64,000 bases of DNA, taken from the NCBI GenBank assembly GCA_900320515.1, contig ONSJ01000004.1, positions 1-64,000 of the forward strand, read 5' to 3'. Below are positions 19,117 to 23,369 of the stretch, piece after piece (the stretch's first letter is position 1; every line of letters begins with the position of its first letter). The DNA comes from an uncultured Methanobrevibacter sp. (GTDB lineage: Archaea; Methanobacteriota; Methanobacteria; Methanobacteriales; Methanobacteriaceae). The position numbers and the translations under genes were made by a program. The notes under the pieces are model-generated. The model did no database searches. It was not told the DNA's origin and saw nothing but the letters and a program-made list of their open reading frames with translations.

Positions 19117-19680
19117 ATGCAAAAGATGATACTTAATGATATGGCCGAAATATTTTCCGGCCTATCATATAGACGTTACTTAGATGAAAATGGGGAGGAC
19201 TTCAAAGTCATTGTTCAAAGGTCCATTAAAAAGGACGGAGATCTGTCTGATTTTGAAGAGATATCTCTAAAAAGCAATATTAAAGAAAGATATTTTACAC
19301 AAAAAAATGATGTTTTGATGAAAATGACCTATCCATATGATGTCGTTTGTGTAAAAGAGGAAAACCTTGTTATAAGTGATAGGATAGCAATAATAAGGCT
19401 TAAAGAAGGTTATGATCCGGAGTTCATTGCCCATCTCCTGACCAATGCCCATATTAAAAAGCAGCTCCACGAGCTTGGGGGCAGCGGCAAGATACCTCAC
19501 ACCTCACTAAAGGAGATTAAACAACTTCAGATTATTGTTCCGGATTTGAAAACACAAATGAAATATGGGGAACTTTTAAACACCATAAACGATAAGATTA
19601 TTGAGGATTTGCGTCAAGTGGAATATGACAGGCACCTTAAGGAAGCGATACTTAATGATTTATGGGGTGAAGGTAAATGA
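19117..19680 (+). CDS. hsdS: Half-size type I restriction specificity protein (HsdS-like, one target-recognition domain)
   Basis: Protein of 187 residues from ATG 19117 with AAAGGG upstream. Type I S subunits recognise the DNA target through two target-recognition domains and are ~400 residues. This one has a single domain (LNDMAEIFSGLSYRR ... LVISDRIAIIRLKEGYDPEFIAHLLTN ... GSGKIPHTSLKEIKQLQIIVPDLKTQ) and one C-terminal spacer helix (KYGELLNTINDKIIEDLRQ), so a functional unit would need to dimerise. It overlaps the HsdM-like gene by 4 bp. No HsdR is in the window. Confidence 0.82.
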   Translation: MQKMILNDMAEIFSGLSYRRYLDENGEDFKVIVQRSIKKDGDLSDFEEISLKSNIKERYFTQKNDVLMKMTYPYDVVCVKEENLVISDRIAIIRLKEGYDPEFIAHLLTNAHIKKQLHELGGSGKIPHTSLKEIKQLQIIVPDLKTQMKYGELLNTINDKIIEDLRQVEYDRHLKEAILNDLWGEGK

Positions 19681-21350
19681 GGAATAGGAAATCCATAAAT
19701 TATAAGATTTTAAGAATGCTGATGTCTCAATCAAGGGGATATAAGCTTCCTCCTGAAACAGACTACATTGTCATGTATGCATTTTTGTATAAATACTGCT
19801 CAGATACCATAAAAGATTTTTTACAGCTTGAATTGAAGGACAAGGAACTCACTATTGATGAAGCTTACAGGGATAATGGCTATCAGGAACATTTGCTTTT
19901 TGATTCACTCAAATTAAACGGTTTTTATATTAAAAGTTCTGAAGCTTTCATTGAGGAAGTCGTTAACAACAACTACTCAAAACCTGGGTTTTTGTCTGAT
20001 TTCTTAAAGGTATTTCCCGAAAACATTGTATTCAGTTCAGAATATCACAATTCCGATTATTTTGATTATATGTTTGCAACCATCGACAATGAAATCGACA
20101 CATTCAAGTTCACAAGCGAAGAGGCTCACAATGTCGGTGAGATAATTAACCTGATTTCTCAATTCGATGTTTTCGATTCAGATTTCGAGTTCAGCGAGGT
20201 GTTCAGCATAATTTCAGATTCCAAACTGATGCACATCGGTTCAAATCCAGAATACATTAATCAGATTCTGTCTCGAATCGTGTTGTCCGAGAAAAAAACC
20301 ATCAACAGCGCATATGATCCATTCATAAAGGATGGGGGGTCCATAATGAAGTTATACGAAAGTATAGGATATGACCTGAAGTATTGCTATGGTAAGGATT
20401 CGCACAAGCTCAATTACTTTTATACTCTTGTAAAATTCTTCATAAATCATTTATCATTCAAAGATGTCTTCTTAAAGAATGAGGATGCATTGGATTCCAT
20501 TGACATTAATGGGTCATCATTTGATGTCATATTGTCAAAGATTCCAATTGCCATAAAGAACTACTATTCATCAAATGTCAATCAAAGCAGGGAAATTGCT
20601 AAAAGAAATAAGCGCAGCGAACTCGAAAGCCTGCTTCTGGATAACTTCGGCATGGATGGGGACTCATTCAAGCAGGACAGTGAATTGAATATTGCTTTGG
20701 AAAATCTTGTTGAAAAGATTGATCTTGAAAATGAATCCGGAACCGATTTTATTGGAGAATATGAATCACTTAAAGAAAGCGAATTTCTGTTTTTGCTCAA
20801 TCTTATTGATTCTCTAAAGGATGATGGAATAATGGCGGTAAGCATTTCCGAGAATTTCCTGTTTAAAAACTCCCTGGAAACCCTTAGAAAATATCTCACA
20901 TGCAAGAAAAACTATATCGAGGCCATCATTCGAATTCCAAATGAAATCATACGTTCCAGACCTGAAGTGGTTATTGTATTTAAGAAAAACAGGCAAAATG
21001 ATGACATTCTATTTATTGACATGGCAGCGGACTACGAAACTCAAAGAAGCGGCCGCGCATATCCCGGACTATTTAGAAAAAATCTCATATTGGATAATAA
21101 TACAATGGCCAAAATGGAAAATGTCTATCTAAACAAACTGACAATACCAAAATTTTCCAATCTGATTTCCGTTGAAGAAATAAAATGCAATGCTTTCAAT
21201 TTGTCAGTTTCCCGTTATGTGGACACTTTTGAAGGGGAATTCATTTCACTTGACCAGTTGGCTGATGAAAAAGAGGAAATCGAATCAAATATAAATAGTT
21301 TGAATCTTAAAATAGAAAAAATGATGGATGAATTAGATATCAGATTTTAA
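19677..21350 (+). CDS. hsdM: HsdM-like N-6 DNA methyltransferase homologue with degenerate catalytic motifs
   Basis: Protein of 557 residues. The C-terminal two thirds follow the type I modification subunit: FLFLLNLIDSLKDDGIMAVSISENFLF, YIEAIIRIPNEIIRS, VVIVFKKNRQNDDILFIDMA, FSNLISVEEIKCNAFNLSVSRYVD, then a coiled coil. The motifs needed for catalysis differ. The SAM-binding DPxxGxGG is DPFIKDGGS (214-222), and the catalytic NPPF/Y after DVIL is SKIP (287-290), replacing Asn by Lys. I infer a catalytically inactive, DNA-binding homologue. Coupled to the half HsdS; convergent with the ARPP-1 gene with an 18-bp overlap. Confidence 0.78.
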   Translation: MRNRKSINYKILRMLMSQSRGYKLPPETDYIVMYAFLYKYCSDTIKDFLQLELKDKELTIDEAYRDNGYQEHLLFDSLKLNGFYIKSSEAFIEEVVNNNYSKPGFLSDFLKVFPENIVFSSEYHNSDYFDYMFATIDNEIDTFKFTSEEAHNVGEIINLISQFDVFDSDFEFSEVFSIISDSKLMHIGSNPEYINQILSRIVLSEKKTINSAYDPFIKDGGSIMKLYESIGYDLKYCYGKDSHKLNYFYTLVKFFINHLSFKDVFLKNEDALDSIDINGSSFDVILSKIPIAIKNYYSSNVNQSREIAKRNKRSELESLLLDNFGMDGDSFKQDSELNIALENLVEKIDLENESGTDFIGEYESLKESEFLFLLNLIDSLKDDGIMAVSISENFLFKNSLETLRKYLTCKKNYIEAIIRIPNEIIRSRPEVVIVFKKNRQNDDILFIDMAADYETQRSGRAYPGLFRKNLILDNNTMAKMENVYLNKLTIPKFSNLISVEEIKCNAFNLSVSRYVDTFEGEFISLDQLADEKEEIESNINSLNLKIEKMMDELDIRF

Positions 21351-22271
21351 ACTGATATCGTCATTAATCTCATCCTCAAACTTAATTTTTAACTTTGTGA
21401 AGTATGATAAATGGACAATTTTATCTTTATATGAGTATAACCTTCCAAGACCATCATCATTTTCAAATTCAAAGGTTTCCTCAAGGCCGATGTTGTCTCT
21501 CTTTTCAAATGTTGAATTCAGTGCGTTTTGGATAACTCCTTTTGCGGCATCAACATTTATTGTAAATGTTTCATTTTCAACTTTTGAGTCAATCAGATAG
21601 CTTTTCAATATCTTTTCATGAAATTCCTTGTATATTTCAGGGTTTAAGAATAATTCAAAGCCTTTGATTTCTCCATTTACAATGATTAAAACACCATTCT
21701 GCCCAGGTTCAACGTTGAACTCTTTTAGTATCTTGTTATGATCTATTTTCAGGTGTTCATAGCTCTCTTCCATTGCACAGGTAGGAGAGGCAAAATCGTT
21801 TTCAACCTCAAGACTATTGATGGATGACCAGATGACATTCTGAAATGAGTCCTGCTTTCTTGAGGCATATTCCTTTGCCCGTCTTGTGTTATAGTTTGCA
21901 ATATACTTTGATTGTTTGAATTCGCTTTTGTATGCCCATCTTCCTTTTTCAGTGCAGCTTACAGGTATTTTCATATGGCTTTTCGCATTGACCAGGATGG
22001 TGGAATTGACGAGACGGTTCTGGTCTCCTCCAACAATCTCTTCACCGTCAATCAGAATCAGCGGAACAACTGAATTGTTTTTAACAATTACCGTATTCAC
22101 TGTGGATGTTTCACATTCCTTGACTTCGACAAGTCCCAATTCAAGGCCTTTTTTAAGGGTCAACAGGTCAATGTATGATTTTTCAGTTTTTAATGGAATT
22201 ATCGCCAGGTTTTCATGTACCTGCGGATTTAAGAGTTCAATTTCATTTTCAAGTGCCATCATTTTCATCAT
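21333..22271 (-). CDS. ARPP-1 domain protein
   Basis: Protein of 312 residues that matches what I know of the ARPP-1 family (named for association with ADP-ribosylglycohydrolase-like and rhodanese/phosphatase proteins). The key segment is PLILIDGEEIVGGDQNRLVNSTILVNAKSHMKIPVSCTEKGRW (about 71-113), then a charged helical stretch (RRAKEYASRKQDSFQNVIWSSI) and a C-terminal domain with VLIIVNGEIKGFELF. The biochemical activity is unknown to me. The gene follows the HIRAN gene after 2 bases, so they form an operon. It converges on and overlaps the HsdM-like gene. Confidence 0.75.
   Translation of the reverse strand: MMKMMALENEIELLNPQVHENLAIIPLKTEKSYIDLLTLKKGLELGLVEVKECETSTVNTVIVKNNSVVPLILIDGEEIVGGDQNRLVNSTILVNAKSHMKIPVSCTEKGRWAYKSEFKQSKYIANYNTRRAKEYASRKQDSFQNVIWSSINSLEVENDFASPTCAMEESYEHLKIDHNKILKEFNVEPGQNGVLIIVNGEIKGFELFLNPEIYKEFHEKILKSYLIDSKVENETFTINVDAAKGVIQNALNSTFEKRDNIGLEETFEFENDDGLGRLYSYKDKIVHLSYFTKLKIKFEDEINDDISLKSDI
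21336..21359. terminator. Shared stem-loop inside the overlap of hsdM and the ARPP-1 gene
   Basis: An 8-bp perfect inverted repeat (GATATCAG / CTGATATC, loop ATTTTAAA) spans the 3' ends of the two convergent genes. The hsdM stop codon lies in the loop. Confidence 0.45.
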
Positions 22272-22273
22272 CT

Positions 22274-22660
22274 TCAGTAGTGTTTTTTAATGTATTCGAT
22301 ATCCAGTTCTGCGGGGTTTTCGCTTAAGTAATGAACGTCGCTTTCAGGATTTTCAATTTCTTCTATGAATTCGTCAGATGTCAATACTTTTGCTATAGCG
22401 TTGTGGTCAGTTATGAATTTGATTCGGGCATAATACTCGTCTTCGATTTTGTCATAAACCCTTCCGGAACTCATGCATCCTTTTATAACTGAATTGACGC
22501 TATTTGCAAGATATCCTATTTTTCCAAAATATCTCATCTCACAGGCTATTGCCTCCGCATCATATTTGTTGTCAGGTTCCTTAACTAGTTTGACTATTCC
22601 ATCCAGTTTAAGGGGTTTGGAGCCATGAAATTTGTTAAATGCAATGATTGTTATATACAC
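22274..22660 (-). CDS. HIRAN-domain protein
   Basis: Protein of 128 residues, essentially one HIRAN domain plus a C-terminal tail. The pattern LDGIVKLVKEPDNKYDAEAIACEM...GKIGYLANSVNSVIKGCM is diagnostic. HIRAN domains bind single-stranded DNA ends or damaged DNA in eukaryotic helicases and occur as single-domain proteins in prokaryotes. The start is GTG 22660, chosen because GAGGTGAA lies upstream; an overlapping ATG is in another frame and stops at once. Co-transcribed with the ARPP-1 gene. Confidence 0.8.
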   Translation of the reverse strand: MYITIIAFNKFHGSKPLKLDGIVKLVKEPDNKYDAEAIACEMRYFGKIGYLANSVNSVIKGCMSSGRVYDKIEDEYYARIKFITDHNAIAKVLTSDEFIEEIENPESDVHYLSENPAELDIEYIKKHY

Positions 22661-22750: not shown

Positions 22751-22770
22751 TAGTAGATTATAATCTACTA
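22751..22770 (-). terminator. 20-bp perfect palindrome at the end of gfcR
   Basis: TAGTAGATTATAATCTACTA is a perfect palindrome spanning the gfcR stop codon, which falls at the hairpin centre. On the minus strand it is followed by CAATTTTTCCTATTTTTTT, consistent with termination of the long leftward operon before the HIRAN gene. Confidence 0.55.
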
Positions 22771-23369
22771 ACTTTAATTAAAGATTCAACAGGTATGCCT
22801 TCAATTTCTGAAAGTCCTGCCTTATCGATTAGGACTGTAACGCAAGTAGGTTCTCCGCCAAGGTCCTTCACGGTGTGAATTACCTCTTTTGCGGTTGTTC
22901 CGCTTGTGATTACATCGTCAACTATAACGACTTTCTTGCCTTCGACGTTTGCGAAGTTGGTACTCATTGTACCTTCATCATCACTTTCATCAGCATCCTT
23001 TCTGTGCTTGTGAGGGTGGAAAATGGCTAAGGAAGTGTCTTCGCCTGCCATGTCTTCAATCAGGTCTGCCATCACGGTTGCAAATGGAATTCCGCTGACT
23101 GCAACACCAACAACAGTGTCAACATCTCCATGTGATAATGCCATATCGCTTAAAGCGCCTGAAACATAACTTAAACGGGTGGAATTTCCACCGATGCTTT
23201 TCCAATTGATAGCAAAGTCAACTGGCGCTTCAGCTTTTACTTCTTCTGTTTTCTGGAGAGTTAACCATCTGGCGGTATCCATACTAACATTAAGTTCATC
23301 AGCTATCTCACCGGTTGTAAATCCGTGTTGTCTTAGTTCTTGAGCTTTTTGAATTAATTTTTGTTTCAC
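22758..23369 (-). CDS. gfcR: GfcR, HTH plus orotate-phosphoribosyltransferase-like regulator
   Basis: Protein of 203 residues with an N-terminal helix-turn-helix ([22 protein letters not shown], about 15-36) and a PRTase domain with the PRPP-binding motif [17 protein letters not shown] (about 146-162). In haloarchaea GfcR regulates central carbon metabolism genes. The target here is unknown, and the PRTase part probably senses a phosphosugar or PRPP. It is the last gene of a leftward operon behind a Gfo/Idh/MocA oxidoreductase and ends in a 20-bp palindromic terminator. Confidence 0.9.

Follow-up and report, generated by a model that had tools for sequence, protein, structure and literature searches.

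A HIRAN/ARPP-1 gene pair in Methanobacteriota and the HsdS/HsdM-like genes beside it

A conserved two-gene neighbourhood of HIRAN and ARPP was reported in 2022 by Iyer and colleagues (PMC9503650, section 3.8, Fig. 7c), who noted an absolutely conserved cysteine and glutamine in ARPP and proposed that the protein acts on sugar or ribose moieties through the invariant cysteine, perhaps by an SRAP-like covalent crosslinking. ARPP (DUF6569) is also found in ARG-centred anti-ADP-ribosylation systems, and relatives of it occur with sugar deacetylases (PMC9503650). The HIRAN domains so far studied bind DNA ends (PMC4666394, PMC8262856); in HLTF, the dinucleotide pocket is flanked by residues Y72 and Y93 (PMC4666394), and HIRAN domains are present in putative HipN antitoxins and HipL kinases (PMC8262856). 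The pair described here is, therefore, not new, and a sequence-only reading of this locus, which had taken it to be part of something not covered by known systems, was mistaken as far as the pair is concerned, since the pair is drawn in Fig. 7c of that 2022 paper.

Layout of the locus

The window, the whole 64,000-nucleotide stretch of DNA that was analysed, comes from the genome of a gut methanogen, a Methanobrevibacter, assembled in 69 contigs (G000, contig C40). The first gene of the pair encodes a HIRAN-domain protein of 128 aa (22274-22660, minus strand), with a GTG start preceded by an AGGTG ribosome site, and the second encodes ARPP-1 (PF20208/DUF6569; 21333-22271, minus strand; 312 aa), with 2 bp between the HIRAN stop and the ARPP-1 start. 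Two plus-strand genes outside this unit face it: a single-TRD HsdS-like protein (19117-19680; 187 aa from the ATG at 19117; PF01420, E 6e-10) and an HsdM-like, predicted pseudo-methyltransferase (19677-21350), which converges on ARPP-1 so that the 3′ ends of the two genes overlap by exactly 18 bp (21333-21350). The coordinates and domain names that the sequence-only reading had assigned to HIRAN and ARPP-1 were correct, as was the length of this overlap.

On the other side of the pair lies a GfcR-like, orotate phosphoribosyltransferase-like regulator (22758-23369, minus strand; NF002620, 255.8 bits), a fixed flanking gene that borders the site throughout the loci of the genus that were compared. 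A perfect palindrome, TAGTAGATTATAATCTACTA (22751-22770), spans the gfcR stop and is followed by T-runs on the minus strand. This element could be a terminator or a regulator site, and the palindrome and T-runs, if they act as a terminator, would set HIRAN-ARPP-1 apart as a separate transcription unit. One half of the palindrome, TAGTAGAT, recurs at several empty sites. The intergenic slot between HIRAN and gfcR is variable, as it is occupied in 12 loci (L076, L084, L116 and others) by a gene of ~646 aa that we take, from its sequence, to be a Kef-type cation/proton antiporter.

Pairing and conservation of HIRAN and ARPP-1

A survey of 152 genomes of Methanobacteriota, counting full or near-full genes, gave 91 copies of ARPP-1, and 66 of these had a same-strand HIRAN gene directly upstream. 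Viewed from the other partner, ARPP-1 was the next gene after HIRAN in 66 of the 75 close HIRAN relatives in Methanobacteriota. This adjacency is far above chance and, with co-directional pairs in several genera, bears out the coupling of the two genes that had been read from the window. The other 25 of the 91 ARPP-1 genes in Methanobacteriota stand without HIRAN, so the partnership is not everywhere an obligate one. In other genera the pair persists in changing contexts, with ARPP-1 identities of 34-47%, and in the loci compared the ARPP-1 start mostly overlaps the HIRAN end or lies within ~30 bp of it. Pairwise dN/dS was 0.02-0.10 for both genes, with synonymous sites saturated in some comparisons, and both are under purifying selection. 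Two loci (L064 and L065, in genomes G008 and G023) have the order ARPP-HIRAN-470aa-ARPP, with two diverged ARPP-1 genes. Additional HIRAN matches (e.g. G000:C37:58850-58966) fall in open frames of ~300 codons that are present several to a genome in many genomes of the genus, with no adjacent ARPP-1.

Away from the site studied here, the neighbours of the pair are housekeeping genes in unrelated contexts, presumably CobD, PurF and a U32 peptidase among them as judged from their sequences, and a defence island was rejected on these grounds. Clustering of neighbours gave no recurring third partner, only locally conserved genes, and the putative Kef-type antiporter gene is confined to the site studied here. 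No relatives were found in viral contigs or phage records, by which a viral or phage source was rejected, and in plasmid records the only matches were in Pimelobacter and Granulicella.

The HIRAN protein matched PF08797 at 32.2 bits (E 1e-7), above the cut-off of 24.7, and all 33 of its aligned relatives match this profile too. Its AF2 model (pLDDT 79, pTM 0.69) was compared with Foldseek, and the top 16 hits were either HLTF HIRAN (4xzg/4s0n, including the DNA-bound form) or lp_0118 (3k2y), with probability 1.00 and a best E of ~1e-3, HLTF HIRAN being the best match; as modelled, the protein has the HIRAN fold. An Asp beside the position of HLTF Y93 is invariant in the relatives, and the Tyr at the Y93 position itself, which stacks on DNA in HLTF, is kept in most of them and replaced by Phe, His or Gln in some, so that DNA-end binding by this protein is likely but not certain.

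The match of ARPP-1 to PF20208 was full-length (264 bits, E 2e-78, positions 2-297). Twenty columns are invariant in 47 sequences with and without a HIRAN partner, including Q84, N85, R86, C106, E108, R111, R130, Q144 and W148, and C106 is the one invariant Cys. Neither profile search nor fold comparison of the AF2 model (pLDDT 87.8, pTM 0.86) with solved and viral structures returned a solved relative, so the label of enzyme rests on the invariant residues; no defence family was matched consistently, and no biochemistry of ARPP-1 was found in the literature. A short protein of ~230 aa that matches the N-terminal part of ARPP-1 only was seen at L134:4483-5175 (minus strand), with similar proteins in other Methanobacteriaceae (G035, G050, G076, G079, G003, G006, G009 and G012). 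The L134 copy has a signal-peptide-like start and retains a Cys and a Gln close to where ARPP has its own, and this short protein may be a secreted relative.

HsdS, HsdM and the shared site

In type I systems, HsdM is usually more conserved than HsdS. The reverse pattern was observed here, with HsdS identity staying at or above ~62% across 38 aligned orthologues and HsdM identity falling to ~40%. Both NPP[YF] (motif IV) and GxGG (motif I) are gone from HsdM in 38 of 38 orthologues. Nevertheless, dN/dS for HsdS/HsdM is ~0.05, and HsdM is under purifying selection despite the loss of both catalytic motifs. HsdM of this type is confined to one genus, and HsdS/HsdM always lie between o114 and gfcR with no HsdR (L032-L035, L063, L067, L094-L106); in this genome, a type I HsdR is absent from the operon and the three HSDR_N genes are on other contigs. 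Type I restriction-modification was rejected for HsdS/HsdM on the loss of both HsdM motifs in all 38 orthologues and the lack of HsdR in the operon. Judged by these motifs, HsdM is a conserved pseudo-methyltransferase, apparently an odder feature of the locus than the pair, and this conserved, motif-dead HsdM and its single-TRD HsdS merit separate study.

The backbone NitR-o96-MtrA-o114 ... GfcR-MocA-HemC recurs over much of the genus, and the content of its o114-GfcR interval differs among genomes. Neither unit is present in L154, L156 and L159, while 12 intact sites (L094-L103, L105-L106) hold HsdS-HsdM without the pair, and at several sites of this kind the HsdM and GfcR stops are only tens of bp apart. 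Both units are present, with HsdM and ARPP-1 convergent, in 27 of the 40 genomes with HsdM. L090 (genome G118) has the pair but no HsdS-HsdM. HsdM is missing from 34 of the 66 pair-bearing genomes, a count in which G151 was scored as lacking HsdM and does have it. Because many of the genomes are metagenome assemblies, an isolated absence may reflect a gap in the assembly, a caveat that does not touch the intact empty sites.

The raw association of HsdM with the pair in 63 genomes was strong when kinship was ignored (17/6/7/33, Fisher p 1.3e-5). On a genus tree built from HemC, MocA and GfcR of these 63 genomes, seven independent contrasts differed in the pair, and HsdM differed in the same direction in 0.2 of them on average. 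The co-occurrence disappears once relatedness is allowed for, and, with so few contrasts, this is absence of evidence for co-variation and not proof of independence. The distribution of the pair is patchy, with ~10 changes on the genus tree. The ARPP-1 copies at this site group in a single clade, within which a few relocated copies also fall; this grouping is consistent with one insertion that was then inherited, and in places lost or relocated. The position shared by HsdM and the pair looks like that one insertion inherited down one clade, and the conserved 3′ overlap, whose length is 18 bp at 11 of the 25 related loci and 21, 11, 4 or 0 bp at the others, would then be an inherited junction. 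From one group of the genus to another, the overlap takes lengths of 4, 11 and 18 bp, spaced 7 bp apart; the exceptions are 21 and 0.

The sequence-only reading had joined HsdS, HsdM, HIRAN and ARPP-1 into one DNA-recognition or defence module of four genes, and the convergence of 27 of 40 HsdM orthologues on ARPP-1, the conservation of the overlap and the raw co-occurrence in the genus (p 1e-5) would be expected of such a module. The two units come and go independently at the site, however: HsdS/HsdM precede GfcR without the pair at the 12 intact sites, G118 has the pair alone, about half of the pair-bearing genomes (34/66) lack HsdM, and HsdM hardly follows the pair across the seven contrasts. 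One insertion with inheritance, supported by the single clade of site copies, explains the neighbourhood. On the intact empty sites and the contrasts, we rejected the four-gene module, which we consider very improbable indeed; HsdS/HsdM appear to be independent and only positional neighbours of the pair. Thus, the neighbourhood survey upheld the linkage of HIRAN with ARPP-1 as a recurrent one, but not the linkage with HsdM/S as a functional unit, and splitting the pair from these neighbours avoids a false defence-system claim.

Possible functions and relation to known systems

The analysis establishes for the pair its co-direction, near-zero spacing, conservation and purifying selection, together with the HIRAN fold and the invariant polar residues of ARPP-1. 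We hold it almost certain that HIRAN followed by ARPP-1 is an operon whose two genes have moved and disappeared together in Methanobacteriaceae, and that in this clade a single insertion placed it between hsdM and gfcR. The whole reading, in which this operon combines presentation of an end by HIRAN with action on a sugar by ARPP-1, is tentative, with a probability of about 0.4. In such a scheme, HIRAN would bind a 3′ DNA end, another nucleic-acid end or damaged nucleic acid and present it to ARPP-1, where the invariant Cys/Gln/Asn/Arg/Glu residues may act on the sugar or ribose of a damaged or modified end or capture it covalently. Stated as a prokaryotic DNA-end repair or surveillance unit, with HIRAN delivering damaged or modified 3′ ends and a Cys106/Gln84 site of ARPP-1 forming a covalent sugar or thioester intermediate, the proposal seems to us unlikely to hold in full. 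ARPP-1 is widespread, and a concrete substrate hypothesis is suggested by its close tie, in archaeal operons that are easy to define, to a predicted reader of DNA ends.

The pair could instead serve metabolism or stress housekeeping rather than DNA ends, with ARPP-1 taking RNA or small molecules (free ADP-ribose, nucleotides or other sugar compounds) as substrates and HIRAN serving as a general sensor. Its location among housekeeping genes (CobD, PurF and peptidase U32, as we name them from sequence, and HemC/GfcR) and not in defence islands is consistent with this, as is the short ARPP N-terminal-like protein of Methanobacteriaceae with its signal-peptide-like start. ARPP-1 relatives are also neighbours of ARG in bacteria, and of sugar deacetylases (PMC9503650); the ADP-ribose in the Pfam name ARPP-1 refers to these ARG (ADP-ribosylglycohydrolase) neighbours and to rhodanese-phosphatase neighbours in bacteria. 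The partner here, however, is HIRAN, the studied members of which bind DNA ends (PMC4666394, PMC8262856), and no ADP-ribose gene is linked to the locus: no ARG, rhodanese-type phosphatase, Nudix or WYL was found among nine proteins scanned at 17.4-24.3 kb, and this genome has its two ARG genes elsewhere, on other contigs. The ADP-ribose context first suggested for the family thus holds for bacterial ARG systems, but not near the archaeal locus, and a metabolic role for the pair is somewhat doubtful. A toxin-antitoxin or abortive-infection module, in which the small HIRAN gene regulates or restrains an ARPP-1 toxin, would account for a small gene placed ahead of a larger one at near-zero spacing and for the patchy distribution, and would agree with the HIRAN domains of putative HipN antitoxins and HipL kinases (PMC8262856) and with a weak, HIRAN-level match to the phage-defence candidate PDC-M03B. 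Such a role is improbable given that ARPP-1 stands without HIRAN in 25 of 91 cases and matches no defence family consistently, that phage and viral contigs gave no matches and plasmids only those in Pimelobacter and Granulicella, and that the genomic contexts are not defence islands.

The SRAP reaction needs an N-terminal Cys. ARPP-1 resembles the abasic-site crosslinking proteins of this family (HMCES/YedK) in a conserved Cys that would act on sugar, an analogy taken from PMC9503650, but its only invariant Cys is at residue 106, and the same ring would be impossible without cleavage. Since this Cys is internal, ARPP-1 does not copy the SRAP reaction as such, and an SRAP-type crosslinker was rejected; its chemistry might instead involve a thiohemiacetal, a nucleophilic Cys or an internal Cys-Gln thioester. 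With HipN/HipL toxin-antitoxin modules the pair shares a HIRAN domain in a small gene unit, but it has no HipA kinase and no HipS-like domain. The ARG-centred anti-ADP-ribosylation systems likewise contain ARPP, and the Pimelobacter plasmid copy adjoins ARG, whereas the archaeal pair is without an adjacent ARG, rhodanese-type phosphatase, Nudix or WYL regulator. In its predicted fold, and in having the (Y)D motif that belongs to the DNA-end pocket, the HIRAN protein resembles the HLTF/Rad5 HIRAN domain, but it stands alone at 128 aa, with no helicase or RING and with 13-14% identity over the aligned structure. Like the HIRAN-ARPP neighbourhood of PMC9503650, the locus has the two domains as separate adjacent genes and the same invariant Cys and Gln in ARPP; to that account, which contains no archaeal survey, the present analysis adds 66 pairs in Methanobacteriota and documents how they have changed place and that they appear independent of HsdM/S there.
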